A stretch of 35,337 bases of DNA, from positions 1 to 35,337 of the IMG/VR virus record IMGVR_UViG_3300045961_000264; one strand, written 5' to 3'. The DNA comes from a virus. The position numbers and the translations under genes were made by a program. The notes beneath the pieces are model-generated. The model saw nothing but the letters and a program-made list of their open reading frames with translations. It was not told the DNA's origin and ran no database searches. Numbering within the stretch: the first letter of the stretch is position 1; every line of letters begins with the position of its first letter. Of this stretch, positions 3,153 to 29,268 are shown in pieces.

Positions 3153-5633
3153 ATGGCTTCGCTCGCACCGTTTGGCCTGTCGGTCAGCCAGAAGCACGTC
3201 GGCCAGACGCGCGAGTACATCATCCGCTCATCGGATACGAACGCCTACGGCATCGGCGATCCGGTCAAGTCGACCGATGTGATCTTCCAGGGTCGCCTGC
3301 CTGACGGCCGCCCGACGCAAGGGCTGCCGGGCGTCACCAAGGCTGCCTCTGGCGACCGCATTCGTGGCGTGATCGTAGGGATGGCCCCCGCCCAAATCGG
3401 CACTGATTCAATGTCGATTCCGGCCACGAAGGCCCGCGACTACGTCGTCCTGGTCAACGACGATCCGCGCACCGTCTATGAGATCCAGGCCGACAATACT
3501 GCCATCCTGGGCACGCTCGCTGGCAGCTACGCTAACTTCGTCGCGGCTTCCCCGGCCGGCTCGGTCAGTGGAATCTACCTCGACTCAACGAGCTTTAACG
3601 CCTCGGCCGGCGACTTCCGCGTGCTGTCTGTGGAGAGGAACGAAGGCGTAAACTCTGTTTTGCGTGTACTGCCCGTCTTTCATGAAGATACGCCGCCGTC
3701 AAAGGCTTGGAAAGTCATGGGCGCGCCCGGCAGCGCGGCAGCCGCCGACATAAGTGGATACCTGAGAACGTTATCTGCGGCCGGTGGCGGCACGGTGCTG
3801 TTCCCGCCATCCACTACGCCGTGGATTTTGGATGACGAAATTTTGATGGCGAACAATACTGCTATCATCCTTTCTCCTGGCGTGACGATCACTCGCCCCG
3901 ATCCGTTTACGCTGACTTGCACGACCGTGAGCGGATCTCCAAATGTCACTGTGGTTGACGGCACCACTAGCAGCATCAAAACATCGTATTACAAGGCGCA
4001 CTATGTCGTTGGTACGGGAATTCCTGTTGCGGCTCGGATTTCTTCTGTAACCGACGGAACTCGATTTATGCTGGACGCAAACGCCACAGCATCAGGCACC
4101 GTAACGCTTACATTCCACTACGCTCACAATATCATCCGGCGCTCTGGAATCATCAATACTCGTATTATTGCGCCGTGGGGTAGAGCGACGCTTGATGGCA
4201 ATGCGGTTTTGTCGCCGTTCGAGTTTGCCAGCACTGACGCTATTCGCAACTGCATTCGTACCGAAAACTGCCAAGACGTTGAGACGTCTGGCCTTCTTTT
4301 AACTAATGCACATTATCACGGCGAAGTTGGAACAACAAACGTCGGAAAAGTGCGGATCAACAATGTCCGCACGTATCGCAACGGCTATCGTGGAATCCAC
4401 TATCACGGCGACAGCCCATCAAGCGCGATTGCCGATGTGCAGATAGACGATATTGAAGTTGACTCAGATGGTTGGAAAGCCTACCAAGTTCAGAGCGACC
4501 AACTAAACAGCGGCTTCTTTGTCGTGTACGACAATATGAGCCGGGTGCAGATCGGCAAGGTTCGCGTAAAAGGATGCCCAGGGCTGGGTGTCCACTTAAA
4601 CGGGAATATTTCCACCGGCGTCAGGTCTGGTGGAATCACCTACAGCAGTATCGTCTGTGAAAACGTAGGTGTCCCGGTGGGGCTGTTTAACGGGCTGCGC
4701 GGCATTTCTATTGACTCGGTCCAGGCCAGAGGCAAGCTCTACACGTTCGCCAACAGCACGCTCGGTTCGGGTACGTCGCAACTTCCGCTTATCCTAAATG
4801 CCACTGGTTACGTGTCGGGCGCCTTGATGCAGTCCATTGACCTCCCGGTCGGCACGGATATGACCACACTGGACATCGGCTACGGGGTGTTCTTGCAGGA
4901 CGTTACCGGCGGGCTCGATGTGCGGCTAGCTATCTGGAGCATTGACGCCACCAATCGACGCATCTGGGTCTACAACTACGCAACTCCAACGGCTCGCCCC
5001 TGGGTAATTGACAATGATGGATTGACTACTGCGACTGTCACAATCTGGACCTGCCGCGGCCCCGCGGTCATTATTACAGGAAGCGACTCCAACTCGCAAG
5101 ACTTGCAGGATATTCGCATCGGGTCTGTTCAATGCGACACTATCGGCGGCAAGACGTTGAGCGCCACCAATCTTGGCGCGTCTGTTCGTTATATCAACGG
5201 ACTGCACATCGGCTCTTATAGCGCCAGGGATTGCTACTCAGGTGTCTACCTTTACAACTTCACCGATTTGTGCGTTGGGGCGTTCAGCGCCATCGGCAGT
5301 GGCAATCGACGAACTGGTAACGATTCTGCAAATGTTGACCTAACCTTGTTAAATGCTGCGGGCGGCACAATCGGCCGAGCGCATATCGTCAGCAAAACAT
5401 CAGGGTCAATGACTCGGAACGGGGCGACGCTTTTGGCGCTGAACAGCGCCAATATCAGCAATATTAAAATCTTTGATGTTGTCGTAGAGAACGGAAACGC
5501 AAGCGCTTTTGCAATTGATTGGACAAACTCTGTCAACGTGATGCTCGGCGACCCGCGTACCACTGCCGGCACAGCCCTGACGCCGACAGGAACAGCGACT
5601 AACGGCAGCGCATTCAGGTACGGGCTGTCTTAA
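3153..5633 (+). CDS. Tailspike: decoration-like N-domain fused to pectate-lyase-type beta-helix
   Basis: The protein has 826 aa. Residues 1-~175 are homologous to the 198-aa protein encoded at 12608-13204: both have PFGL, NAY/FxIGDPV, GVIVGM/GCIVGM, IPATK, a YYVLV-type strand, DDP and NFVAA/NLVAA in the same order. Residues ~205-225 (GGGTVLFPPSTTPW) mark the start of a right-handed beta-helix of the pectate-lyase type, as in polysaccharide-binding or -degrading tailspikes. Many Asn/Gly-turn strands follow. Residues ~255-322 are a small beta module also found in the hub protein at 16120-17790. The role is probably host-glycan recognition or depolymerisation. The N-domain should anchor it to the virion, and its relationship suggests the capsid lattice. 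The beta-helix DNA is much AT-richer (35% GC in 5461-5520) than the N-domain (63% in 3241-3300). Catalytic residues could not be assigned. Confidence 0.85.
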   Translation: MASLAPFGLSVSQKHVGQTREYIIRSSDTNAYGIGDPVKSTDVIFQGRLPDGRPTQGLPGVTKAASGDRIRGVIVGMAPAQIGTDSMSIPATKARDYVVLVNDDPRTVYEIQADNTAILGTLAGSYANFVAASPAGSVSGIYLDSTSFNASAGDFRVLSVERNEGVNSVLRVLPVFHEDTPPSKAWKVMGAPGSAAAADISGYLRTLSAAGGGTVLFPPSTTPWILDDEILMANNTAIILSPGVTITRPDPFTLTCTTVSGSPNVTVVDGTTSSIKTSYYKAHYVVGTGIPVAARISSVTDGTRFMLDANATASGTVTLTFHYAHNIIRRSGIINTRIIAPWGRATLDGNAVLSPFEFASTDAIRNCIRTENCQDVETSGLLLTNAHYHGEVGTTNVGKVRINNVRTYRNGYRGIHYHGDSPSSAIADVQIDDIEVDSDGWKAYQVQSDQLNSGFFVVYDNMSRVQIGKVRVKGCPGLGVHLNGNISTGVRSGGITYSSIVCENVGVPVGLFNGLRGISIDSVQARGKLYTFANSTLGSGTSQLPLILNATGYVSGALMQSIDLPVGTDMTTLDIGYGVFLQDVTGGLDVRLAIWSIDATNRRIWVYNYATPTARPWVIDNDGLTTATVTIWTCRGPAVIITGSDSNSQDLQDIRIGSVQCDTIGGKTLSATNLGASVRYINGLHIGSYSARDCYSGVYLYNFTDLCVGAFSAIGSGNRRTGNDSANVDLTLLNAAGGTIGRAHIVSKTSGSMTRNGATLLALNSANISNIKIFDVVVENGNASAFAIDWTNSVNVMLGDPRTTAGTALTPTGTATNGSAFRYGLS

Positions 5634-6128: not shown

Positions 6129-6469
6129 ACTATGCCGAGGATCTCGCGGATGTACGGGCAAAACTGGAAAGTCACCAGCGGCAACTTGTCGAAATGCGTG
6201 CTGCGCTGGTGGCAATGGAAGAACGTGCAGTGTCTGTGATGGAGCACACCGCCAAGAAGGAAGTCGAGTCCATCGTCGGGACTTTGCCAACGCCCGACGA
6301 GGTCGCGCATTTGAAACTGCTCCACCGCTCCTTCATCAGGGCGGAGCAGCGCAAAAGCGAACTGTTTATGCACATGCTTAAGTGGGGTGTCGGCGGCGCA
6401 CTGGCGTTCAGCGTCCTCGCTTTCTGGGAAGGCTTGAAAGCCAAACTTGGACTGGCAAAAGCACCATGA
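6125..6469 (+). CDS. Coiled-coil protein with C-terminal membrane segment (114 aa)
   Basis: Translation appears to start at the TTG at 6125, inside TTGA shared with the upstream stop. The N-terminal ~35 residues (LADVRAKLESHQRQLVEMRAALVAM) form a heptad-type coiled coil. A single hydrophobic segment lies near residues 88-102 (WGVGGALAFSVLAFW), followed by a short basic tail (KAKLGLAKAP). The build is a cytoplasmic helical rod with a C-terminal membrane anchor. It could be a holin-like or lysis-accessory protein; the exact family is not recognised. The downstream ATG overlaps its stop in ATGA, so it is translationally coupled on both sides. Confidence 0.65.
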   Translation: MNYAEDLADVRAKLESHQRQLVEMRAALVAMEERAVSVMEHTAKKEVESIVGTLPTPDEVAHLKLLHRSFIRAEQRKSELFMHMLKWGVGGALAFSVLAFWEGLKAKLGLAKAP

Positions 6470-6768
6470 GCGTTTTCGAGTCACTGCCCAAAGACGTCAG
6501 CGAAACACGCAAGCTGACGTTTGACTTCGTTGGCAAGATGGCCTCGGGCGTGACAATCTCGTCGTCGGCGGCTTCGCAGGCCGTCTACACCGGCGCCACC
6601 TCTACGCTGACGCTCGGAAGCACGTCAAATTCCGGCACACAAGTCACGCTGACTGCCGCAGGCGGGACCGCCGGCGTCGTTTACCAGGTTACCGTCGCAG
6701 CCACCCTGTCCGACGGCCAGATTTTGCGGCAAGCTACCCTTCTCCCCGTCCTCCCTGACGCCCTGTGA
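6466..6768 (+). CDS. Small Ig-like structural protein, fibre-tail-adaptor type (100 aa)
   Basis: The start is the ATG at 6466 within ATGA; the longer frame reaching back to 6382 is only overlap with the previous gene. After SETRKLTFDF comes a beta-sandwich pattern ending GGTAGVVYQVTVAATLSDGQILRQ. This is typical of small phage proteins often annotated as fibre-tail adaptor or tail-fibre-associated Ig-like proteins. It has no cysteine and no membrane segment. It probably belongs to the virion and bridges a fibre or spike to the tail. It sits between two small membrane-protein genes, linked by four-base overlaps, an odd place for a structural protein. Confidence 0.6.
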   Translation: MSVFESLPKDVSETRKLTFDFVGKMASGVTISSSAASQAVYTGATSTLTLGSTSNSGTQVTLTAAGGTAGVVYQVTVAATLSDGQILRQATLLPVLPDAL

Positions 6769-7010
6769 CCACCGCGAAGTCTTTCCCCTTTGACGCTCTT
6801 GGCGGTCGCCGCTGGCTTTCAGCGGTCGGCCTCACAGTCGTCTCGACCTGGCTTGCCCGCACTGGTACTATCTCTGGCGATGCCTGGGTCAACTTCCAGA
6901 CATTTCTTTACGGCATCTTCGCTTTCGCCAACATCGGCCAGCGCGGCATCGAAGCCGCTCGCGATGTGAAGATGCCCTCCAGCGAAGCTCCCCCCGAAGC
7001 CTCCAAGTGA
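6765..7010 (+). CDS. Small membrane protein, holin candidate (81 aa)
   Basis: The start is the GTG at 6765, sharing GTGA with the preceding stop. Two hydrophobic segments are visible (about residues 17-33, LSAVGLTVVSTWLA, and 44-58, FQTFLYGIFAFANIG), with a charged, Pro-rich C-terminal tail. Size, two membrane spans and a hydrophilic tail fit a class II-type holin. No endolysin gene is seen nearby, so the assignment rests on topology alone. Its stop overlaps the GTG of the large terminase gene in GTGA. Small membrane proteins next to terminase genes are common in podoviruses. Confidence 0.55.
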   Translation: MTTAKSFPFDALGGRRWLSAVGLTVVSTWLARTGTISGDAWVNFQTFLYGIFAFANIGQRGIEAARDVKMPSSEAPPEASK

Positions 7011-8497
7011 CCGCCGTCGCCCTCACCCCAGACCTGATCGAGTCGTTCGCCGGCGTCTACTTGTCGCCGATGTACGATTCTCCGGTCCCAACTCCGCAGC
7101 TTCACCGCGACTGCTGGTCGCTGTACTGCGAGCCGGTGACGTATGCAGCAGTTGCGGCACCTCGCGGGCACGCCAAAAGCACTGCCCTCACGCACGATTT
7201 CGGCCTGGCGACCGCCCTCTTCCGCGTTGAAGACTACATCGTGATCGTCTCTGCGACGGAGGACCTCGCAATCCAGCATTTGGGCGACATCGCCACCGAG
7301 CTGCGCGAAAACGAGGACATCCAGCGGGATTTCGCCGTCGATAAGCTTGTCACTGATGCCAAGACCGACATCGTCGTCCGCTTCAAGGACGGCCACGAGT
7401 GCCGCTTCATCGCGAAGGGTTCTGGCCAGAAGATGCGCGGCATCAAATGGCGCGGCAAGCGTCCTGGCCTCATCATCTGTGACGATCTGGAGGAAGATGA
7501 GCAGGTTGAATCGCGGGACCGCCGCACCAAGTTCGGCCGCTGGTTCCGCCGGGCCCTCCTGCCCTGCCTGCGCAAGGGCGGCAAGGTCCGCATGCACGGC
7601 ACGATTCTGCATGAGGAGGCTCTCCTCGCCCGCGTGATCCGCGGTAAGGTCGCTGGCGAATCCGGCGCAGCCCGGAAAAGCTGGAAGACACTCATCTTCC
7701 GGGCCCACCGCTCGTTTGACGACTTCACCCAGATCCTCTGGCCCGAACAGTTCTCCGAAGAGCGCCTCCGGGAAATCCAAAATGAGTTTATATCTGACGG
7801 TGACGCAGCAGGCTATTCTCAGGAGTATCTCAATGATCCTCGAGATAACGCGGAAGCTTATCTTCGTCCGGAAGACTTCGTCGCAATGTCTGAAGCTGAT
7901 CGCCGTGCGGACAAGACGCACTCTGTCGGCTGCGACTTCGCCGTCAGCAAAGCCGACTCCGCCAACCGAACCAGCTTCACTGTCGGTGGACGGACCGTCT
8001 ACAACCGGACATGCATCGTCGATCAGCGAGTCGGCCGGTGGGACACTGCCGAGTGGATCGACGTGATGTTCGAGATCCAGGAACGCTACGATCCCGACAT
8101 CTTCTACGTGGAGGATGGTGTCATTTGGAAAGCGGTTGCCCCGACGATCTACCGCGAGATGCGCCTGCGCGACAAGTGGCTCAACTGCGTGCCTTTGCTC
8201 CCCGTCAAGGACAAGGCCACGCGCGGCAGACCTTATCAAAAGCGGATGCGCGCTGGCGCGGTCGTTTTCGATAAGGATGCCTCCTGGTACCCCGGCTACG
8301 AGGCCGAGAACCTGGCGTTCACAGGCGTCAGCGAGGCGAAGCTCGACGACCAGTTCGACTCGACCGCCACGCTCTTCCTCGGGCTCGACCGGGCGCCGGA
8401 TCTTGAGGACGAAGACTTCGAATCCGACGAAGACCGCGACATGCGCGAGAACGATCCGCGCTTTGGCCAGGGTCGGTCTACAGTGACTGGATATTAG
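7007..8497 (+). CDS. Terminase large subunit
   Basis: This 496-aa protein is the ATP-driven DNA-packaging motor and nuclease that docks on the portal. The N-terminal ATPase has Walker A APRGHAKST (residues 51-59), Walker B LIICDDLEED (155-164) and a downstream MHGTILHE segment that fits the coupling motif. The C-terminal RNase H-like nuclease has candidate acidic residues D311 (GCDFAVS), E370 (YVEDG) and D452 (DDQFDS). The length is normal for the family. It starts with GTG in a GTGA overlap with the holin candidate, so expression is probably tied to the upstream chain. A stem-loop overlapping its TAG stop may end this transcript. The APRGHAKS type of Walker A is shared with several podovirus terminases. 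Confidence 0.92.
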   Translation: MTAVALTPDLIESFAGVYLSPMYDSPVPTPQLHRDCWSLYCEPVTYAAVAAPRGHAKSTALTHDFGLATALFRVEDYIVIVSATEDLAIQHLGDIATELRENEDIQRDFAVDKLVTDAKTDIVVRFKDGHECRFIAKGSGQKMRGIKWRGKRPGLIICDDLEEDEQVESRDRRTKFGRWFRRALLPCLRKGGKVRMHGTILHEEALLARVIRGKVAGESGAARKSWKTLIFRAHRSFDDFTQILWPEQFSEERLREIQNEFISDGDAAGYSQEYLNDPRDNAEAYLRPEDFVAMSEADRRADKTHSVGCDFAVSKADSANRTSFTVGGRTVYNRTCIVDQRVGRWDTAEWIDVMFEIQERYDPDIFYVEDGVIWKAVAPTIYREMRLRDKWLNCVPLLPVKDKATRGRPYQKRMRAGAVVFDKDASWYPGYEAENLAFTGVSEAKLDDQFDSTATLFLGLDRAPDLEDEDFESDEDRDMRENDPRFGQGRSTVTGY

Positions 8498-8736: not shown

Positions 8737-10824
8737 ATGCTAAACCTTCTGTCGCCAATCACGCTCACTCCAGCGATCGCCAAGTCGCCCAATCTCACCG
8801 CCGAGTTTGGGCCCGAAGACCTGCGCTCGATCGGCGAGTACGTCTGGCTGGGCTACCAGGAGGACCGCAAGTCCCGCCACACCTGGGAGCAGCGCTCGGC
8901 TGCCGGCATGGATCTGGCGATGCAGGTTGTCCAGGAGAAGACCTTCCCTTGGCCCAATTGCTCGAACGTCGCATTCCCGCTCGTCACGATCGCCGCCCTG
9001 CAGTTCCACGCTCGCGCCTATCCCTCCATCGTCTCAGGCACTGACGTTGTGCGCTGCCGGGCCGCCGGCTTCCAGCCTACCCCGCAGGAGCAGGCGACCG
9101 CCGACGAGGTTGGTCGCTACATGAGCTACCAGGTCCTCGAGGAGGATACCGCCTGGGAAGAGGGCACCGACCGCCTCCTGCTCAACTACTCCATCGTCGG
9201 TTGTGCCTTCAAGAAGTCTTACTACGACGCGCCGGAGATGCACAACGTCTCCGAACTCGTCCTGGCGCAAGATCTGGTCATGGACTACTTTGCCAAGTCG
9301 GTCGAGACTTGCCGCCGGAAGACTCACGTTTTCCCCCTGCATCGCAACGACATCATTGAGGGCTGCCGGGCCGACTCCGCCAAGTATCACGACGTCACCA
9401 AGGAGACCTGGTTCACCGCTCCGGCCCAGCCCATCGCTGACAACATGCCGAAGCGCGATGGCACCAAGCCGCCGCTCAACGCCCCGGCTACCCCCTTCAC
9501 CGCCCTCGAGCAGCATTGCTGGCTCGACCTCGACGGCGACGGCTACGAAGAGCCCTACATCGTCACCATCGAAGCCCAGACCCACACCGTCCTGCGCCTT
9601 GTTGCTAGGTGGGAGCGCGACGAAGACATCTCACGTAACAGGGCTAAACAAATTGTCTCGATCCGCGCGACGGAGTACTTCACCAAGTACGGCTTCATCC
9701 CGGCCCCCGACGGCTCCATCTACGACATGGGCTTTGGAACTCTTCTGGGCCCTCTCAACGAGTCAGTCAGCTCGGCTATCAACCAGCTCATCGATTCTGG
9801 GACAATGGCCATTGGGGCTGGCGGATTCCTGGGGCGTGGCGCCAAGATTCGTGGTGGTGTATATACTTTCGCTCCGTTTGAGTGGAAGCGAGTCGACTCC
9901 ACCGGCGACGACCTCAGCAAGTCTATCTACCCACTTCCTGTGCGGGAACCCTCCCAGGTACTTTTCTCTCTCCTATCCCTTCTGATCGACTACACCAACC
10001 GCATCTCCGGCGCAACCGAGACGATGGTTGGCGAGAACCCCGGCCAAAACACTCCCGCCGAGACCTCTCGCTCGATGGTCGAGCAAGGCATGAAGGTCTA
10101 CGCCGCCATCTTCAAGCGGACGTGGCGTGCCATGAAGGAGGAGTTCCGCAAGCTCTACATCCTCAACGGTTTCTTCGCTCCGGTGCGCTACCGCCATCTG
10201 TTCCTGGGCGATCCGAACCGCATCTGCCCAGCCGCCGACCCCAACATTGTCTCTGACAGCGAGCGCTTCGGCCGTGCTGCCGCAATTGCGCAGCGCGCTG
10301 CCACTGTCCCTGGTTACGATCCAGCGGCCGTCGAGACCAACTTCCTTCGCGCTCTGCGCATCGAGAACCCGCAGCAGTTCTACAAGGGCATCGACCCGAA
10401 CGCTCCGCCTCCCAAGGACCCGCGCGTCCAGGTTGCCGAGATGCGCATGCAGGTCGATATGGCCAAGCTGCAAAACGCCCAACAGGAGTTCGTGGCTACC
10501 CTCATCGAGGACCGCCGCCTCAACCAGGCCGAAATGGTCAAGATGCAAGCCGAGGTCGTTCTTCTCCTCGCGCAAGCCCAAGATGCCGGCGACAATCGCG
10601 AGATTGTTCGCATGCAGACCGCACTCGCGATGATGAAACAGCGCGACGAAGCTATCCGTGGTAAGGTCGACCACCTTCTCAAGCTAATGGAGTTGCAAAG
10701 TGAGCCAGACAGAAAACCCGTTGATTCTGGAGCAGTACAACGACTGGTTAACGCACCCGGTGACGGTGGCGCTGAACCGATACTTGCGCCAGCAGCGGGA
10801 GCTCCTGAAGGAGCAATGGGCTAA
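8737..10824 (+). CDS. Portal protein
   Basis: This 695-aa protein should form the dodecameric ring at the unique vertex through which DNA enters and leaves. The region KTFPWPNCSNVAFPLVTIAA (near residues 70-90) is a recognisable signature of podovirus portals, and the middle part (LNESVSSAINQLIDSGTMA; PAETSRSMVEQGMKV) fits the clip and stem segments. Residues ~565-655 are a long amphipathic helical or coiled-coil segment rich in Met, Gln and Lys. The final ~40 residues are Ala/Pro/Gly-rich and are encoded in DNA that also encodes the start of the next gene. The ribosome-binding site is weak, and the leader before it is highly structured. Confidence 0.88.
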   Translation: MLNLLSPITLTPAIAKSPNLTAEFGPEDLRSIGEYVWLGYQEDRKSRHTWEQRSAAGMDLAMQVVQEKTFPWPNCSNVAFPLVTIAALQFHARAYPSIVSGTDVVRCRAAGFQPTPQEQATADEVGRYMSYQVLEEDTAWEEGTDRLLLNYSIVGCAFKKSYYDAPEMHNVSELVLAQDLVMDYFAKSVETCRRKTHVFPLHRNDIIEGCRADSAKYHDVTKETWFTAPAQPIADNMPKRDGTKPPLNAPATPFTALEQHCWLDLDGDGYEEPYIVTIEAQTHTVLRLVARWERDEDISRNRAKQIVSIRATEYFTKYGFIPAPDGSIYDMGFGTLLGPLNESVSSAINQLIDSGTMAIGAGGFLGRGAKIRGGVYTFAPFEWKRVDSTGDDLSKSIYPLPVREPSQVLFSLLSLLIDYTNRISGATETMVGENPGQNTPAETSRSMVEQGMKVYAAIFKRTWRAMKEEFRKLYILNGFFAPVRYRHLFLGDPNRICPAADPNIVSDSERFGRAAAIAQRAATVPGYDPAAVETNFLRALRIENPQQFYKGIDPNAPPPKDPRVQVAEMRMQVDMAKLQNAQQEFVATLIEDRRLNQAEMVKMQAEVVLLLAQAQDAGDNREIVRMQTALAMMKQRDEAIRGKVDHLLKLMELQSEPDRKPVDSGAVQRLVNAPGDGGAEPILAPAAGAPEGAMG

Positions 10825-10951: not shown

Positions 10952-11277
10952 ACCAGCCAATCCAGAATACCAGCGGCGTCTCCCCTCTCGGGCGTGCTGT
11001 CCTCGTCGAGTACTATGAGCCTGAGCGCAAGGAATCCCTCATTTTCATCCCGGAGTCCGTCCGCAAGGGCGAAGTCCTGATGGAGCAGCGCGCGGTGGTT
11101 GTCGAAGTCGGGCCAACTGCCTGGCCTAACGAACCGCCTCGGGCCAAGCCCGGTGACCGCGTGCTGATTGCTGCGTTCACTGGCTACGCCACGAAGGGGC
11201 CGGCCGACGGCCGCCTCTACCGAATCGTCAACGACCAGGACATCTTTGCCCGCATCGACCACGAGGAGAACCGCTGA
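10948..11277 (+). CDS. GroES-like co-chaperonin domain protein
   Basis: This 109-aa protein has the pattern of the GroES/Cpn10 beta-barrel: GRAVLVEYYEPERKES near the N-terminus, a mobile-loop-like stretch (IFIPESVRKGEVLMEQ), AVVVEVGP, KPGDRVLIAAFTG and the closing strand RIVNDQDIFARI. Phage versions such as T4 gp31 work with host GroEL to fold the major capsid protein; here the role is inferred from fold and position. It lies between the portal and scaffold genes, and both neighbours overlap it by one to four bases (ATGA before, TGATG after). GGAG 7 bases upstream supports the start. The length is slightly above bacterial GroES (~97 aa). Confidence 0.75.
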   Translation: MNQPIQNTSGVSPLGRAVLVEYYEPERKESLIFIPESVRKGEVLMEQRAVVVEVGPTAWPNEPPRAKPGDRVLIAAFTGYATKGPADGRLYRIVNDQDIFARIDHEENR

Positions 11278-12113
11278 TGCCCGCTGAAATCGAGCAAGCC
11301 GCCCGCGAGATGGGCTGGCGTCCGCAGGAAGAGTTCCGCGGCGACCTCTCCAAGTGGGTGGACGCCGAGACCTTTGTGTCTCGCGGCGAGAACTTCATCC
11401 CCATCCTTCGCAAGGACCGCGAGGAACTTCGTGCCGAGAACGCTGACATCAAGCGCTCCTTGGCCGAGACTCGCACTCTGCTGGAGACCTCCCAAGCGGC
11501 TATCGAGGAACTCAAAAAGTTCCACTCGGAGGACACCGCGCGACAGGTCGAGCGCGCTCGCAAGGCCCTTGTCCAACAGCTGAAGGAAGCTCGCGAAGCC
11601 GGCGACGTGGACAGCGAGGTGAAGATCCAGGACGAGCTGGCGGAGATTCGGACGGCGCAAGCAGCCCCGGAGACAATCCCCGTGGCGAAGCCCGCCGCAC
11701 CGCCGCCTCCCGCGCTCGACCCCGACCTCGTGGCGTGGCAGAAGGACAACACCTGGTTCGCCGAGAAGCCCCGCCTCCGTGGCTTGGCTTTGGGCATCGC
11801 CGAAGAGCTTCGTGCCTCTGAGCCCAAGCTCGTCGGCAAGGCCTTCTACGAGCGGATTACCGAGGAAATGCAGGAATACCTTGATCCGGCACCGGCCCAG
11901 CGCCCTGCCAACAAGGTAGGCGGTGGCCGTGGCTCTCCTTCCAACGGAGCCGCCGGCGCGCGCGAGCGCACCTACACCGACCTCCCGGCCGAGGCCAAAG
12001 CGGCTTGCGCCGAGTGGTCACGCAAGCTTGTCGGCCCCGGAAAGGCTTACAAGGATGAGGCTTCCTGGCAGGCCTACTACGCAACCCAGTACTTCTCCGG
12101 AGAAGCCGCATGA
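11277..12113 (+). CDS. Head scaffolding protein
   Basis: This 278-aa protein is highly charged. Residues ~48-130 form a long coiled coil (KDREELRAENADIKRSLAET and onward). A Pro/Ala linker follows (PVAKPAAPPPPAL), then a helical segment and a basic, flexible C-terminal part. Scaffolds guide procapsid assembly inside the shell and usually have this helical, low-complexity make-up with a basic capsid-binding end. The position, between portal/GroES-like and decoration/major capsid genes, is the standard one. GAGGAG lies about 8 bases before the ATG, which overlaps the preceding TGA. No protease is encoded nearby, so scaffold is likely released intact, as in P22. Confidence 0.75.
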   Translation: MPAEIEQAAREMGWRPQEEFRGDLSKWVDAETFVSRGENFIPILRKDREELRAENADIKRSLAETRTLLETSQAAIEELKKFHSEDTARQVERARKALVQQLKEAREAGDVDSEVKIQDELAEIRTAQAAPETIPVAKPAAPPPPALDPDLVAWQKDNTWFAEKPRLRGLALGIAEELRASEPKLVGKAFYERITEEMQEYLDPAPAQRPANKVGGGRGSPSNGAAGARERTYTDLPAEAKAACAEWSRKLVGPGKAYKDEASWQAYYATQYFSGEAA

Positions 12114-12607
12114 CCACCCCTGAGCAAATCAACAAAGTCAACCCAGCCAATGCACCTGAAAAGGCGCCTGCCAAGCGCACCCCGATGGCACTTCCTACCC
12201 TGAAGCTCGCCATGCCGGAAATCCCCGGCCATGTCTGCCACTGGTTCCGCGGCAACCCGCAGCGCATCCAGCAGGCTCTGCAGGCCGGCTACACCTTCGT
12301 TACGCGGGACGAGGTCCAAGTGAACTCGTATGGCTTGGCCAACGACTACAACGGGGACGGCAACACCGACCTCGGGTCGCGGGTCAGCCAGTCCGCTGGC
12401 GAAGGCGAAGGAACAGGCGCGCTCCTGTACCTGATGAAGATCAAGAAAGAGTTGTGGGACGAAGACGAACTCGGCGTTGCCGAGCGTCACGAGCAAATCG
12501 CTGCTCAACTGCGCGGCGACAAAGGTTTCTCCAAGGGCGGCGACGACACCAGTCATCGTTACTCCCGCGGAGAGAATCGCAATATGTTCACACCCAGGAG
12601 GTCTTAA
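12110..12607 (+). CDS. Hypothetical head-module protein (165 aa)
   Basis: The N-terminal 30 residues are Pro/Ala/Lys-rich and probably disordered. The core has LAMPEIPGHVCHWFRGNPQRIQ followed by QALQAGYTFVTRDEV and a helical C-terminal half, ending in a basic tail. The pattern of a short peptide describing a residue-to-ligand contact (HVCHWF...AGYTFV) recurs in proteins of unknown role beside capsid genes of many phages. It overlaps the scaffold stop in ATGA and is followed after a strong AGGAGG by the decoration-type gene. It is likely a minor head component or assembly factor; no more precise claim is justified. Confidence 0.6.
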   Translation: MTTPEQINKVNPANAPEKAPAKRTPMALPTLKLAMPEIPGHVCHWFRGNPQRIQQALQAGYTFVTRDEVQVNSYGLANDYNGDGNTDLGSRVSQSAGEGEGTGALLYLMKIKKELWDEDELGVAERHEQIAAQLRGDKGFSKGGDDTSHRYSRGENRNMFTPRRS

Positions 12608-13204
12608 ATGGCCAACGCAAATACCCCATTCGGCCTAGCGCCGGTGGAGTACCTTGGTGGCGCGCAGTGGAACGGCAAGGCGCGTCGCTACTACATCCCA
12701 TCGACTGACGGCAACGCCTTCGCCATCGGTGATCCGGTCGTTCTGGCCGGTGACGCCGACAGCAATGGTGTCGCCTCCATCACGCTGGCCACCGCCGGCT
12801 CGGCATTCCTCGGTTGCATCGTCGGCATGGGCGGCATGGCCTACGGCGGCCCGTCGGTCGATCCGACCAATCTGAACACGACGGTGATCCCGGCGACCAA
12901 GACGAAGGCGTACTACGTCCTCGTCGCGGACGATCCGAACATCATCTTCGAAGTCCAGGAAATCGGCACCGGCACCGCACTCACCTCCGCCGCTGTCGGT
13001 CTCAACTGCAACTTGGTTGCCGCCGCCAACAGTGGCTACCTGTCCGGTTGGGTGCTCGACAATACCACCGAAGCTTCAACCAGCACGCTCGACGTGAAGT
13101 TGCTCGGCCTCAAGCAAGTCCCCGGCAACGCCTTCGGCGCCTATGCCAAGTGGCTTGTGCTCATCAACAACCACGTCTACCGCGGTGGCGTGACCGGCAA
13201 GTAA
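12608..13204 (+). CDS. Capsid decoration/cement-type protein, paralogous to the tailspike N-domain
   Basis: This 198-aa beta-rich protein is encoded 9 bases before the major capsid gene with a strong AGGAGG (12596-12601), indicating high expression. In phages such as Bordetella BPP-1 a cement protein precedes the major capsid gene, so a shell-stabilising role on the outer capsid surface is likely, though not shown. Key segments are PFGL (7-10), NAFAIGDPV (36-44), CIVGMGG (70-76), VIPATKTKAYYVLVADDP (93-110) and NLVAA (135-139). The same series in the same order forms residues 1-~175 of the tailspike at 3153. The two therefore share a fold and possibly a docking site on the virion. Confidence 0.7.
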   Translation: MANANTPFGLAPVEYLGGAQWNGKARRYYIPSTDGNAFAIGDPVVLAGDADSNGVASITLATAGSAFLGCIVGMGGMAYGGPSVDPTNLNTTVIPATKTKAYYVLVADDPNIIFEVQEIGTGTALTSAAVGLNCNLVAAANSGYLSGWVLDNTTEASTSTLDVKLLGLKQVPGNAFGAYAKWLVLINNHVYRGGVTGK

Positions 13205-13213
13205 GGAGCAATC

Positions 13214-14134
13214 ATGCCCGCTGGCATTATCAACACAGGCTCACACCCAAAACTACTCTGGCCCGGTGTACGAGCGATCTGGGGCCAGGTCTACGACGCG
13301 CATCCGAACGAGTACGAGGACCTATACGACTGGGACACCTCATCTCGTGCGTACGAGGAGAATGTGCAGGTCACTGGCTTTGGGCTGGCGTCCATCAAGC
13401 CTGAAGGCTCGGGCGGCACGTTCGACAGCGAAGTGCAGGGTATCATCACCCGGTTCCAGCACATCGCCTACTCGCTCGGCTACATGGTCACCTACGAAGA
13501 AATGCAGGACAACCTGTATGCCGAAGTCGGGGCACGTCGCGCCCAGGCCAACGCCTTCTCGATGAACCAGACGGTCGAGACCATCGCCGCTTTCCTGTAC
13601 AACAACGCCTTCAGCACGACCTACTTCACCACCGGTGACAGTGCGGCCCTGTGCTCGACGGCGCATGTGCAGGCGACCGGCGGCACGTACTCGAACGCGC
13701 TGACCCCCTCCGCGGATCTGTCCGAGGCGGCGCTCGAGGACGTGTGCATTCAGATCATGAACTTCCAGAACGACCGCGGCCTGCGGATCGCTCTGATGCC
13801 TCAGAGTCTGCATGTCTCGACCGCCGAGTGGTTCAATGCGAACCGCATCCTGAAGTCTGTTCTCCAGTCCGACACTGCGAACAACAACATCAACGTGCTC
13901 AAGGCGACGTCCGCGTTCCCCAAGGGCATCAAGATGAACCACTTCTTCACGCTCCCGAGCACGTGGTTCGTTCGCACCAACTGCCCCGAAGGCATGACGG
14001 CGTTCTGGCGTCAACGGCCGGACTTGGCGCAGGACAACGACTTCCCGACGCGCAATGCGCAGGCCTTGGCCTACATGCGCCTGTCCGTCGGCTGCACCGA
14101 CCCGCGCGGCATCGTCGGCAGCAACCGGCCGTAA
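13214..14134 (+). CDS. Major capsid protein
   Basis: This 306-aa protein is preceded by AAGGAG. Its position after scaffold and decoration genes and its length fit an HK97-fold shell protein. Recognisable elements are a long helical spine-like region (GYMVTYEEMQDNLYAEVGARRAQANAFS is the centre), a surface-like loop with Ser/Thr-rich segment, QNDRGLRIALMPQSLHVS and a final beta-rich A-domain-like part with FFTLPSTWFVRTNCPEGM and FWRQRPDL. Such FWR/RP segments near the C-terminus occur in Mu gpT-like and related capsid proteins. Expected behaviour is assembly into a T=7-type procapsid around the scaffold. A nested hairpin follows the stop. Confidence 0.85.
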   Translation: MPAGIINTGSHPKLLWPGVRAIWGQVYDAHPNEYEDLYDWDTSSRAYEENVQVTGFGLASIKPEGSGGTFDSEVQGIITRFQHIAYSLGYMVTYEEMQDNLYAEVGARRAQANAFSMNQTVETIAAFLYNNAFSTTYFTTGDSAALCSTAHVQATGGTYSNALTPSADLSEAALEDVCIQIMNFQNDRGLRIALMPQSLHVSTAEWFNANRILKSVLQSDTANNNINVLKATSAFPKGIKMNHFFTLPSTWFVRTNCPEGMTAFWRQRPDLAQDNDFPTRNAQALAYMRLSVGCTDPRGIVGSNRP

Positions 14135-14253: not shown

Positions 14254-14985
14254 ATGGGTACCCCCGTTCGTTTTCCCTACGGCGTCACTAACGTCGTCAA
14301 GGCATCTCCCACCGGCATGCTCGGCTTGCCCGACCCCACCACCTGGGTCACCTACTTCAACGACTTCCAGACCTTCGCGACTGCCGAATGGACTATCACC
14401 ACAACCGAGGGTGGTGCCGGCGATGCCACTGAGGCTCTCACGGACGCACACGGCGGCGTGCTGCTCATCACCAACGACGCCGCCGACAATGATCTGGACT
14501 TCTTCCAGAAAGTCGGTGAGTCTTTCCTGCCCGACTCGGCGAAGAAGCAGATCGGCAAGATTCGCTTCAAGATCAGCGACGCTACGCAGAGTGAGTTCTA
14601 CTTCGGCCTGATGATCACCGACACCGATCCACTCAGCTCGACCGCGGGCGATGGCGTGACTGACGGCATCTTTTTCATGAAGGAGGACGGCACTACCAAT
14701 GTCAACTTCTACGTCCAGAAGAATGCGACCACCGGTCAGCTCACCTCTTCCGCAGTCACGACGCTAACGGCGGACACCTGGACCGAGCTCGCATGGGCCT
14801 ACGACGGCCGCCGCTACGTTACTCTGTGGAAGGACGGCGCGCAGCTCAGCAGCGTTGACCTGACCGCGACCGTGACCGACTACCTGCCAGACACCGAGTT
14901 GACCGTCAGCTTCGGCCTGAAGAACGGCGAGGCCGTTGCGAAGACGCTGTCCATCGACTACATCTTCGTCGCGCAAGAGCGTTAA
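14254..14985 (+). CDS. Jelly-roll/lectin-like structural protein (243 aa)
   Basis: The sequence is almost all beta, with YFNDFQTFATAEWTITT at the N-terminus, several Gly/Asp/Asn turns, GKIRFKISD, a VTDGIFFMKEDG segment, an alternating strand pattern WTELAWAYDGRRYVTLWKDG and a final SIDYIFVAQ strand. This fits a concanavalin-A/LamG-type beta-sandwich, a fold used by phage head or tail surface proteins to bind glycans or to stabilise capsids. It lies directly after the major capsid gene. It could be a second head protein, a head-fibre-like protein or a tail component. A hairpin overlaps its ribosome-binding site. Confidence 0.6.
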   Translation: MGTPVRFPYGVTNVVKASPTGMLGLPDPTTWVTYFNDFQTFATAEWTITTTEGGAGDATEALTDAHGGVLLITNDAADNDLDFFQKVGESFLPDSAKKQIGKIRFKISDATQSEFYFGLMITDTDPLSSTAGDGVTDGIFFMKEDGTTNVNFYVQKNATTGQLTSSAVTTLTADTWTELAWAYDGRRYVTLWKDGAQLSSVDLTATVTDYLPDTELTVSFGLKNGEAVAKTLSIDYIFVAQER

Positions 14986-14997
14986 TCGGGGGCTGCT

Positions 14998-15387
14998 ATG
15001 GCAAACGCAGTCACCACACAAACGCTCATTGACGGGGACCGCAATGTCGTCATCCTCCTTACCGGCGTGCTGGACACCAGCAACGAGTCGCGTACAATCA
15101 AGGTGGACGTTTCCGGGCTCGGCCCGGCGCCCACCAAGGTTCGCGTGGACACCATCCGCCACCTGATCTCGCCCGGCCTTATCGTCGTGCTAGACTGGGA
15201 TGCAACAGCCCCGGTGACGTTCGCTGCCCTCACCGGCTACGACGAAGTCGAGGCGAAGTGCTTCGGCGGTCTGCAGAACAACGCAGGCGCCGGCGTTACC
15301 GGCGACATCTACCTGACAACGCTCGGCTGGGCGTCAGGCGTTTTGGCCTACAACATCATCCTTGAGATGACGAAGGTGAGCTTCTAA
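14998..15387 (+). CDS. Hypothetical structural protein, connector region (129 aa)
   Basis: A compact, beta-rich protein with no Cys-rich or membrane segments beyond one cysteine. It starts MANAVTTQTLIDGDRNVVIL, has repeated strand-like segments (VVILLTGVLDTS, LIVVLDWDATAPVTF) and ends ILEMTKVSF. Small proteins of this size and make-up are common between the major capsid and adaptor genes of podoviruses. GGGGGC precedes the ATG by a few bases. The stop overlaps the ATG of the gp4-like gene (TAATG), so the two are probably made in linked amounts. The precise role is unknown. Confidence 0.6.
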   Translation: MANAVTTQTLIDGDRNVVILLTGVLDTSNESRTIKVDVSGLGPAPTKVRVDTIRHLISPGLIVVLDWDATAPVTFAALTGYDEVEAKCFGGLQNNAGAGVTGDIYLTTLGWASGVLAYNIILEMTKVSF

Positions 15388-16106
15388 TGGCCGGCCCCGC
15401 ATCCCTCAATACGCCATCTCGTCTCATCACCCAGGCGCTGCGGGATTGCGGGCGCCTCCAGATCGGCGACACCCCTACAGGCGAAGTCATCGCCGACGCG
15501 ATGGGCCGCCTGACCGACCTGATCAACACCTGGCAAACGCAGGGGTTGAAGCTCTGGCTCAACACGACGCAGAGCATTACTCTGACCGCCGGCCTCGCAT
15601 CATATACCCTCGGTCCAGCTGGCGCCATCATCACAGTCAAACCAATGCGTGTCATCGAGGGCTGGTTTGTCCGCGCCGACAGCACGCAATATCCGATCTG
15701 GCCGCTGTCGTGGAACGAGTATCAGCGCCTGGGCAACCTCACCGCGCAGGGTGCCATCAACAGCTACTTCGTCGACAAGCAGGCCGCGAACCTCGTCGTC
15801 AAATTTTGGCAGGTCCCCAACGCCACCGCCGCTCTCGGCACAGTCAAGCTCCTTATCCAGGCGCAAGCGCTGGCCCCGACCGAACTCGACGAGACGATGT
15901 CCTTCCCCATCGAGTGGTTTCTGGCGCTGCGCTGGGCCCTCGCCGACGAGTTGGCCACCGGCCAACCCCTCCCCATCATGGAGCGCTGCCAGGCCAAATC
16001 CCTGTACTATCGCGACCTGCTCGAGGACTGGGATGTCGAGGACGCGCCCACCCGCTGGCAGATCGACCCGATCACTTCGGGCATGCGGCCGAGCAGGTTT
16101 CGTTAA
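15387..16106 (+). CDS. P22 gp4-like head-to-tail adaptor protein
   Basis: This 239-aa protein begins with helices (SRLITQALRDCGRLQIGDTPTGEVI; MGRLTDLINTWQTQGLKLW), continues into a beta domain (SITLTAGLASYTLG, RVIEGWFV) and ends with a helical region (MSFPIEWFLALRWALADELATG; LYYRDLLEDWD). Helix-beta-helix order and the LN.W...GLKLW motif match P22 gp4-type adaptors, which attach to the portal after packaging and close the head. The gene lies just before the gp10-like hub, as in P22-type tail clusters. The length is somewhat above P22 gp4 (166 aa), in line with other podovirus homologues. The start overlaps the preceding stop (TAATG). Confidence 0.75.
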   Translation: MAGPASLNTPSRLITQALRDCGRLQIGDTPTGEVIADAMGRLTDLINTWQTQGLKLWLNTTQSITLTAGLASYTLGPAGAIITVKPMRVIEGWFVRADSTQYPIWPLSWNEYQRLGNLTAQGAINSYFVDKQAANLVVKFWQVPNATAALGTVKLLIQAQALAPTELDETMSFPIEWFLALRWALADELATGQPLPIMERCQAKSLYYRDLLEDWDVEDAPTRWQIDPITSGMRPSRFR

Positions 16107-16119
16107 TAGGGGCGCATAA

Positions 16120-17790
16120 ATGGCCGATTATACGCGCGATGCCCCCAAGGAGTTAACCCTCCCTCCGCGCCTTCCTTTGGTGGGTGTCCCTAACCAACGC
16201 CAGACGTCCGTCGAGACCGACTCCCGCCTGATCAACGGCTATGTGGAGATGGGCGAGGATGGCGTGCTGCGCGTGGTCAAGCGGCCAGGCCTTACTGAGC
16301 TGTACACCTTGTCCGGCCTCGGTGCGGGAATGTTCGAGAATTACTCGATATTCTACACCGTCAGCGGCGGAACGGCAACCGCCAAGATCCACTACGATGG
16401 CGCAGCTGGCACAACGATCGAGTCCTACCCAAGCAGCGAACCGCTCACCCGCTTCTTCCATTTTGCCACCGCACCGACCAGTAACGACCCGACTGACGAT
16501 GTGCTGGTGTATCAAAACGGCTTCAACTGGTTTATCAGCACAACGCTTCAGCCGAAATCGCTTGACGCCTCCTCAATCACCGCTAGCATTACCCTGGGTT
16601 CGCCCACCGCGACTGTCGCCAGCACGACCGGCCTCACCGAATACACTGCGATTACGCACGCCAGCATCCCGGCAAACACGCTGATCCAGAGCATCGACTC
16701 CGCGACGCAGTTCACTATGACTGCCAACGCCACAGCGACAAACGCTGCCGCCGCACTCACCTTGGCCGTCGGCGGCCCTGCAATTCGCGAAGGCTTCTCG
16801 AGCGCCTCCAGCATTCGCCACTGGGTCCACGGCATCACGGTCCTCAACAACTCCGTGTACTTTTTCACGGTGCAGCGCAAGCTCATCGGGGCCGACTTCA
16901 ACGAGCCAACCTCGTGGAATCCGCTCAACTTCCTGTACGTGTACGTCGAGCAGGATTCTGCGATTAGCCTCGAGCGCCAGCTCACCTACATCGTTGCGTT
17001 TAAGTCAACTACCACTGAGTTCTTCCGTGACGCCGGCAATACCCCAGGCTCCCCACTCGAGCGCGTCGAGGGTCTGCAGCTCAACGTTGGCTGCCTCGAC
17101 GGCCGCACTGTTCAGTCCATCGACGGCTCCGTCTTGTGGGTCAGTGTGACCGAATCCGGCTTGCGCAGCGTCTACCTCATGGAAAAGATGAAGGCGGTCG
17201 AGATAGCTACACCAGCTGTACGTCGCGTCCTATCCGCAGTCACGCCAACGCACGGCATCTCTTTCTCGGTGGCTGGCCACTCCTTCTACTGCATCACCGA
17301 CTTCGTCGCTGGCGTCAGTCTGGTCTACGACATCACTTCCAAGTTTTGGTCCTATTGGCAGGCCCTCGGCACGACGTACTTTCCCTTCGTCGCGGCCACG
17401 GTCGTCAACGGAGTCACCCGCCTGCAGCATGCCACCAACGGGAAGATCTACGTTCTTGACCAGACGGTCTACCTCGACGTTTCTACCCCCATCACGATGG
17501 ATATCTACTGCCCTCAATTCGACGGCAATATCCGTGTGGCCAAGCACCTCGCCCGCATGCACGTTGTCGCCGACCAGCAGCCCGGCGGTGTCTTGCAGGT
17601 CCGCAACAACGACTACGATCAGACCGCCAGCCGCTGGACCAACTGGCGCGAGTTCGACCTTAGCCAGGCCCGCCCCACAATAACCAACTGCGGTTCGTTC
17701 ACCAAGCGATTCTATCATTTCCGGCATGCCTCCCCAACTCCGTGCCGCCTCACCGCAGTTGAACTTGAGTTGCAGCCTGGGGTGCTGTAA
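16120..17790 (+). CDS. P22 gp10-like tail hub / packaged-DNA stabilisation protein
   Basis: This 556-aa protein is a beta-propeller-type hub that binds the adaptor ring and carries spikes. Recognisable pieces are the N-terminal VETDSRLINGYVE followed by RVVKRPGL, the central VYFFTVQRKLIGADFNEPTSW, AFKSTTTEFFRDAG and the SIDGSVLWVSVTESG.RSVYLM series. These are typical of the phage-stabilisation family (gp10). Residues ~153-217 form an inserted small beta module that resembles residues ~255-322 of the tailspike (shared GSP..TV, IP...I.S, T.F...ANATA). AGGGG precedes the start. The next gene starts in TAATG. Confidence 0.8.
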   Translation: MADYTRDAPKELTLPPRLPLVGVPNQRQTSVETDSRLINGYVEMGEDGVLRVVKRPGLTELYTLSGLGAGMFENYSIFYTVSGGTATAKIHYDGAAGTTIESYPSSEPLTRFFHFATAPTSNDPTDDVLVYQNGFNWFISTTLQPKSLDASSITASITLGSPTATVASTTGLTEYTAITHASIPANTLIQSIDSATQFTMTANATATNAAAALTLAVGGPAIREGFSSASSIRHWVHGITVLNNSVYFFTVQRKLIGADFNEPTSWNPLNFLYVYVEQDSAISLERQLTYIVAFKSTTTEFFRDAGNTPGSPLERVEGLQLNVGCLDGRTVQSIDGSVLWVSVTESGLRSVYLMEKMKAVEIATPAVRRVLSAVTPTHGISFSVAGHSFYCITDFVAGVSLVYDITSKFWSYWQALGTTYFPFVAATVVNGVTRLQHATNGKIYVLDQTVYLDVSTPITMDIYCPQFDGNIRVAKHLARMHVVADQQPGGVLQVRNNDYDQTASRWTNWREFDLSQARPTITNCGSFTKRFYHFRHASPTPCRLTAVELELQPGVL

Positions 17791-28297: not shown

Positions 28298-29268
28298 GCA
28301 CCAAAGGACGTTCCGATTACTACGCACCCGGCGATTACAACGCCTGCTGCGACCGCTGCTGCGCCAAGTTCAAGGCGAGCAAGCTGAAGCGCGACTGGCA
28401 CGGGTTCATGCTGTGCGAGTGGTGCTGGGAGCCTCGACATCCGCAGGATTTCGTACGCGGACTGGCGGACCCGACGCCGGTACCTTGGGTGCGTATGTGC
28501 TGCGGAGACAACTTTGTCACGCTGTGCACACCGCCTGTTGCCGAATTTACAGTGGAGGCAGATGAATCAGATCCCCTCACCGTGCATGTGACTCGCGTTA
28601 CGACTACGCCAGACCCGGTTGCATGCCCGGTTACTTGCTCAATCGACTTCGGCGATGGGACTGTCGTCGAGAGCTGCACTGCGTCGCACACATACGCCGA
28701 AGGGACTTACGAGATTGAGGCCTCCGTATCGAACGACGCTGCTGTCGATACGCAGACGTTGTCTTTTGAGGCGATTTCTCCGGTCATTAGTTGCCTTGAC
28801 TGGCGCTCTGATACTATCATAACCGCCGGAGGTGTTTGGCCGAGTTATGCCGTAGACGGTTTCGAGATAATCACTTATGAGCTGCGGACTTTGTGGGGCA
28901 GACCTTACATATCCGCGTTACCGCCGCCGGTTGGCACGTCTGGCATTGGCTTTGCTTCGTTTGATCCGCATGGATTTATAGTCAACATTAATCCAGCAAT
29001 TATCCAAGTTCGTAAAGTCGTAATGACCTGGCTTTATGGCGATATTACTACATTCAATATCATTGTCCAGGGCGGCGGCTCTATACTTCGCAATCGCCCC
29101 TCAAGCTCGGCGGCAGGGGGCGATGATTGGGATACTAATGCTGTGCTGATTACCTCCGCCGATCTTGTGGCTAATGGCTATCCAACTCAGTTTATTACGA
29201 GTATCGTTTTCAACTCCCCTTCGTCCGGCTGGCAGTTCGTGAGCCAGATAATCTTTGGCTGCGAATAG
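28294..29268 (+). CDS. Zinc-knuckle and PKD-domain protein, possible adhesin (324 aa)
   Basis: The N-terminus has C19xxC22...C41xxC44 and then EPRHPQDFVRGLADPTPVPW. This Cys4 zinc-ribbon-like unit with the HPQDF motif is recognisable in phage virion proteins of unclear function. Residues ~111-147 form a PKD/Ig-like domain (DFGDG 118-122, HTY 132-134), a fold used in surface and carbohydrate-binding proteins. The last ~165 residues are a beta-rich domain I do not recognise. It is the last late gene, coupled to the giant ejection protein by ATGA, and is followed by a bidirectional terminator. A surface or host-recognition role is plausible. Confidence 0.65.
   Translation: MSTKGRSDYYAPGDYNACCDRCCAKFKASKLKRDWHGFMLCEWCWEPRHPQDFVRGLADPTPVPWVRMCCGDNFVTLCTPPVAEFTVEADESDPLTVHVTRVTTTPDPVACPVTCSIDFGDGTVVESCTASHTYAEGTYEIEASVSNDAAVDTQTLSFEAISPVISCLDWRSDTIITAGGVWPSYAVDGFEIITYELRTLWGRPYISALPPPVGTSGIGFASFDPHGFIVNINPAIIQVRKVVMTWLYGDITTFNIIVQGGGSILRNRPSSSAAGGDDWDTNAVLITSADLVANGYPTQFITSIVFNSPSSGWQFVSQIIFGCE

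Follow-up and report, generated by a model that had tools for sequence, protein, structure and literature searches.

Our analysis suggests that an 826-aa protein, which the first-pass annotation had called a tailspike, is best read as a capsid-mounted adhesin or depolymerase. It is encoded in the window, by which we mean the whole stretch of DNA that was analysed, an IMG/VR virus record of 35,337 bases. We put the probability at about 0.64 that it is a two-part virion surface protein, in which a decoration domain of family X sits on the capsid and carries a beta-rich cargo outwards. X is the name given here to a stand-alone protein of 198 aa encoded beside the major capsid protein (MCP) gene, and to its relatives. 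Since the N-domain of the spike shares the X fold, attachment to the head is the most economical reading. The relevant features, all on the plus strand, are:

3153..5633, plus strand: spike reading frame of 826 aa, N-domain fused to a large C-terminal part (C-part)
3153..3686, plus strand: spike N-domain, residues 1-178, member of family X (phrog_37556-like, capsid-decoration-like; BLASTP, profile, AlphaFold2, Foldseek)
3687..5633, plus strand: spike C-part, about 648 aa, beta-rich, probable right-handed beta-helix adhesin or depolymerase (fold judged by eye)
7007..8497, plus strand: terminase large subunit (phrog_38, E 3.5e-72)
8737..10824, plus strand: portal protein, 695 aa (phrog_1216, E 1.9e-11; PF23899 SU10_portal, E 4.5e-7, just under the cut-off)
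11277..12113, plus strand: probable scaffolding protein, 278 aa, coiled-coil-like, placed between portal and MCP, with a homologue in 259 fetched loci
12110..12607, plus strand: conserved head-module protein, 165 aa, between the scaffold-like gene and X, with a homologue in 226 fetched loci
12608..13204, plus strand: X, stand-alone, 198 aa, probable capsid decoration (cement) protein (phrog_37556, AlphaFold2, Foldseek, adjacency to MCP)
13214..14134, plus strand: major capsid protein, 306 aa, Mu gpT-like (phrog_371 major head protein, E 1.7e-4; PF10124, E 9e-4, just under the cut-off)
15387..16106, plus strand: tail adaptor, SU10 adaptor-like (PF24175, E 9.8e-6, just under the cut-off)
16120..17790, plus strand: head closure or tail stabilisation protein, Hc3-like (phrog_578, E 2.2e-29)

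The N-domain of the spike is homologous to X across the whole domain, which makes it a member of this family. In a BLASTP comparison of the whole spike, residues 6-165 match X with 34% identity over 173-176 columns (E 3e-21), the N-domain alone reaches E 4e-23, and a profile of 57 X sequences matches residues 4-164 with E 1.5e-21 (E 0.36 for the MCP as a control). In a wider alignment the match reaches about residue 178, and the spike therefore contains the complete fold of the 198-aa protein. The first-pass annotation had aligned the two proteins lengthwise through a series of shared blocks, and both the coordinates and lengths of the two reading frames and the blocks themselves are as it described: PFGL, NAYGIGDPV/NAFAIGDPV, GVIVGM/GCIVGM, IPATK, VVLVNDDP/YVLVADDP, YEIQ/FEVQ, NFVAA/NLVAA and SGIYLD/SGWVLD are present and keep their order. 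No further X domain was found in the window record. The reading frame of the spike is intact over 826 codons, and GGGGGCAAGTAAATG is plausible as its ribosome-binding sequence. The fused domain is divergent and forms a long branch in trees; its N-arm is 5-6 residues shorter than that of X in the alignment, and 64% of the family core residues are kept (44 conserved columns), which places it at the 3rd percentile of the family, with the losses in the C-terminal third. Because of this divergence, that is the long branch, the lost core residues and the shorter N-arm, the fused domain could have lost capsid binding.

X itself is probably a capsid decoration protein, as its conserved position and its fold matches indicate. 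It matches phrog_37556, a family of unknown function, and has many relatives in IMG/VR, with 218 distinct X coding sequences collected, the window and annotated phage records counted in. In the five annotated phage records that contain it, X is labelled a hypothetical protein each time. Alcaligenes phage vB_Af_QDWS535 is a cultured phage that carries X. One scan of bacterial genomes with a single query sequence found no X and so gave no hint of a prophage or host. The first-pass annotation had placed the separate copy just before the major capsid gene, and this position turned out to be a family trait. In the window, 9 nt separate the end of the X gene from the MCP gene, and X lies immediately upstream of a Mu-gpT-like MCP gene in 268 of 269 testable loci. 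This count is based on a stop-to-stop listing of reading frames, includes a few loci that are overlapping copies of one contig, and is made up of 231 loci with the MCP next to X and 37 of the 38 listed exceptions, in which the MCP reading frame overlaps the end of X. The sole true exception, L061, has about 1 kb between X (9977-10594) and MCP (11602-12519), unique among the testable loci. The 198-aa protein is thus encoded directly upstream of the MCP, whereas the fused copy is encoded upstream of the terminase. This location of the fusion gene, at the left of the structural module and away from the MCP, counts against an anchorage at the head.

Several other genes of these genomes deserve mention. 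Neither the 278-aa scaffold-like protein (no significant match) nor the 165-aa head-module protein could be matched to a family. Genes for GroES-type co-chaperonins are found between portal and scaffold-like gene, upstream of X, in all five annotated phage relatives (L083, L084, L085, L086, L087). The first large gene after the MCP (14254-14985 in the window) is highly variable among relatives, for example L010 11603-12577, L007 11652-12635, L008 8299-9045, L015 7344-8387 and L036 11857-12888. Many of these genes start with a short F-x-x-G-V/L type motif, after which comes, as judged by eye, either a module of about 240 aa resembling LamG or one of 320-390 aa resembling a beta-helix; this gene possibly encodes a second exchangeable surface protein. 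A TFDF/FSxxxxxGETI-like motif marks a short protein of beta type encoded at window positions 6382-6768, and similar-looking genes lie upstream of the terminase large subunit gene in L072, L194 and L196. A 324-aa protein with a PKD domain (28294-29268; PF18911, above the cut-off), encoded after a giant gene of 1760 aa, may be a further surface or tail protein.

Structure prediction gives an all-beta model of X with high confidence (AlphaFold2, 52 sequences, pLDDT 88.2, pTM 0.84). Its five best PDB matches in Foldseek are all phage-capsid chains, namely T1, FCWL1 (two chains), the TW1 capsid-stabilising protein and Sf11; phage 21 SHP and lambda follow lower in the list. The best match has E 5.3e-3, probability 0.99 and TM 0.40/0.47, all E-values are above 1e-3, and the top five show TM of about 0.33-0.48 with large rmsd. 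Because the single E-values are weak, the weight rests on the consistency of the capsid match list. In the full-length model of the spike, residues 20-178 of the N-domain are the only well-modelled part (pLDDT 67-93), and the top three Foldseek matches of this model are again T1 and FCWL1 capsid chains. Both domains are therefore predicted to have the same fold, with T1/FCWL1 chains on top for either of them. The first-pass annotation had argued from such a shared fold to display on the head; the common fold and the decoration-like nature of X are in keeping with this, and a location on the head is what we infer from them.

The proteins of T1, TW1 and Sf11 are beta-tulip decoration proteins (PMC11945409, PMC7602432, PMC12724387). 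A profile search of X against the PDB gave no sequence match and no link to known decoration families, and hhalign probabilities of X with the TW1 and T1 decoration sets were below 1%. For Sf11 gp40, too, no homology to lambda gpD or P74-26 gp87 can be recognized in the sequence (PMC12724387), and therefore a shared fold is possible for X in spite of its missing sequence similarity to the known beta-tulip families.

One further case of such a fusion was found. The contig IMGVR_UViG_3300037692_000289 (loci L010, L124, L186) encodes a 703-aa protein (L010 2284-4395) with an X-like N-domain (156 bits with the X profile), which retains 70% of the family core residues, and a C-part of about 500 residues that is unrelated to that of the window spike. 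The gene lies immediately upstream of the terminase, and this genome also has its own X beside the capsid gene; the window and this contig each combine X with a second, divergent X domain that bears a C-terminal extension. Among 45 whole records searched, only the L010 contig had two X domains, since a second match in G031 reads as a single X split across the record ends. Fusions are found in 2 of 218 distinct X-bearing loci, in 2 of the 48 for which 2.5 kb or more of sequence ahead of the terminase is available (window and L010), and no more were found in the nearest X subclades. The fusion is rare but recurrent in form, and the unrelated C-part of the second case points to the X domain as a reusable anchor.

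Concerning the origin of the fused domains, the designation as a paralogue made in the first-pass annotation holds in the sense of homology and is disfavoured in the sense of a duplication of the window's own X. In tree tests with 38 X domains, both fused domains branch apart from the X encoded in the same genome (window, AU p 0.019; L010, AU p 0.0018), and in a wider tree of 149 rows both fall within a different X subclade. A recent duplication of the neighbouring X gene is accordingly rejected for L010 and disfavoured for the window, although both fused domains are long branches and the AU results are taken cautiously. With such long branches, the fused domains may have come from another phage lineage or from a duplication long ago. 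A single shared origin of the two fusions gave p 0.053 in the tree test.

The C-part of the spike is less well defined. By eye, AAADISGYLRTLSAAGGGTVLFPP followed by rows of V/I-rich strands gives the impression of a pectate-lyase-type beta-helix. Its AlphaFold2 model, made without homologues, is beta-rich with pLDDT mostly below 60, and the P22 tailspike and lyases are among the non-significant Foldseek matches of the spike model. Hydrophobic periodicity is weak at lags 15, 25 and 29 (59 lags tried) and suggestive only. The C-part has no match in Pfam or PHROG and no relatives among phages and IMG/VR viral contigs, and the beta-helix models PF12708 and PF13229 did not match the spike at E<=10. 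The label tailspike for this part hence goes back to a sequence pattern and is not backed by a family, a relative or a confident model.

Based on these data, we infer that X sits on the capsid and that the fused copy still binds there. The N-domain (1-178) would bind the outer capsid at the sites, or within the trimers, used by the 198-aa X, either as homotrimers or mixed with plain X in the manner of T1 gp48 with gp49. Most likely, the spike would be seated on the head, either substituting for X or interspersed with it, and its C-part of about 650 residues would project outwards to act there as an adhesin or polysaccharide depolymerase. Such a cargo may serve in an early and reversible phase of binding to the cell surface.

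In the main rival reading, a decoration-derived domain has taken on a new role and attaches an ordinary podophage tailspike to the tail, with the spike at the tail only. The Hc3-like protein, as the tail hub, would be the contact of a conventional P22-type tailspike. The adaptor and Hc3 genes in the window belong to a P22/SU10-like tail, no other large spike was recognised in the window, and the N-domain of the spike is divergent with an altered N-arm and C-terminal third. Moreover, the phi29 preneck (tail) appendage is among beta-tulip structural matches, so the fold can occur in tail proteins (PMC7602432). Nevertheless, we consider tail attachment rather unlikely, as a separate tail-binding domain was not seen in the spike and the domain is homologous end to end to the MCP-linked X, while the unrelated cargo behind the same domain in a second phage is expected for an anchor to a common site.

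Alternatively, X could have some other part in head morphogenesis, as a minor internal protein or in assembly, and its fold would serve the spike for trimerisation or folding instead of capsid attachment. The PHROG family of X has no assigned function, the Foldseek E-values are weak and X has no sequence-level link to any known decoration family, all of which would be compatible with this view. It appears improbable in the light of the five best fold matches, which are exclusively phage-capsid chains, the gene position, which X shares with TW1 gp56 and T1 gp48/49, and the scaffold-like gene already present upstream of X. Finally, the fusion is known from a single IMG/VR record and its C-part lacks relatives in phage and viral collections, as might be seen with an artefact of metagenomic assembly. 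Such an accident is highly improbable because the same design, with a divergent N-domain, recurs in an independent contig; in addition, the N-domain of the window spike does not duplicate the window's X, and the frame with its ribosome-binding sequence is undisturbed.

If our reading is true, the protein represents a natural capsid display of a full-size spike through a decoration-protein anchor, as laboratories engineer it with lambda gpD, and this anchor would be one that naturally carries about 500-650 residues of cargo. It would add a head-mounted, possibly enzymatic adsorption to a widespread uncultured group and imply that the word tailspike is no safe guide to the location of a spike. 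Furthermore, a common unannotated gene adjoining the MCP thereby obtains a probable function. We also raise, with slightly less than even confidence, the broader idea that the decoration domain is a swappable head anchor for large unrelated adhesins or depolymerases in these uncultured podovirus-like phages, which would provide each head with several full-size, tail-independent spikes.

P22/Sf6-type tailspikes attach to the tail via their own N-terminal domain. The window spike resembles them in its possible beta-helix cargo, in line with the P22 tailspike in the non-significant Foldseek list, and differs in lacking a family match. A head-mounted spike as proposed here is known from RcGTA, whose head spikes attach the particles to capsule polysaccharide (PMC7296036); these, however, consist of a jelly-roll base and a separate fibre protein at the five-fold vertices, encoded by two genes (PMC7296036). 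The X model matches the folds of TW1 gp56 (PDB 5WK1; PMC7602432) and Sf11 gp40 (PMC12724387), with sub-significant E-values, and the TW1 gp56 gene lies 13 nt upstream of the coat gene gp57, in the same order as X and MCP. Unlike the window spike, both are plain decoration proteins of about 150 aa without cargo, and TW1 gp56 has no profile-level sequence similarity to X.

Closer parallels are T1 gp48 and phi29 gp8.5, beta-tulip capsid anchors seen experimentally with their C-terminal parts outward (PMC11945409; PMC6542822; PMC7602432). In phi29 gp8.5, a capsid base, formed by an N-terminal beta-barrel (beta-tulip) at quasi-threefold capsid positions, and a fibre proposed to aid adhesion are combined in one protein (PMC6542822; PMC7602432). 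The window spike would have the same layout of N-terminal capsid-base domain and C-terminal extension in one chain, whereas gp8.5 has 280 aa and a coiled helical stem, and its base contacts the Ig domain of the phi29 MCP. In T1, one gp48 monomer and two gp49 form a heterotrimer at threefold-type positions of the capsid, and gp48 is a homologue of gp49 with a protruding C-terminal domain, for which the authors propose a role in adsorption (PMC11945409). If X is a decoration protein, the window presents the same situation as far as the genes tell, with two homologues in one genome, a plain domain and a copy with C-terminal extension. The two T1 proteins share 43% identity (34% for spike N-domain and X), and in T1, too, the N-terminal stretch is shorter in the extended copy. 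The T1 decoration genes adjoin the MCP gene in the order gp49-gp48-gp47 (AY216660) whereas the window fusion lies upstream of the terminase, X has no detected sequence homology to the T1 decoration proteins, and the gp48 cargo of about 100 aa (Ig-like by annotation) compares with about 650 aa in the window spike. No report of a tailspike fused to a decoration protein was found in the open-access literature, and the first-pass annotation had regarded the exact chimera as unfamiliar. With gp48 and gp8.5 as smaller precedents this is true only in part; what these precedents lack is a cargo of such a size (about 500 and 650 residues here, about 100 in T1) and the swapping of unrelated cargoes on one type of anchor.
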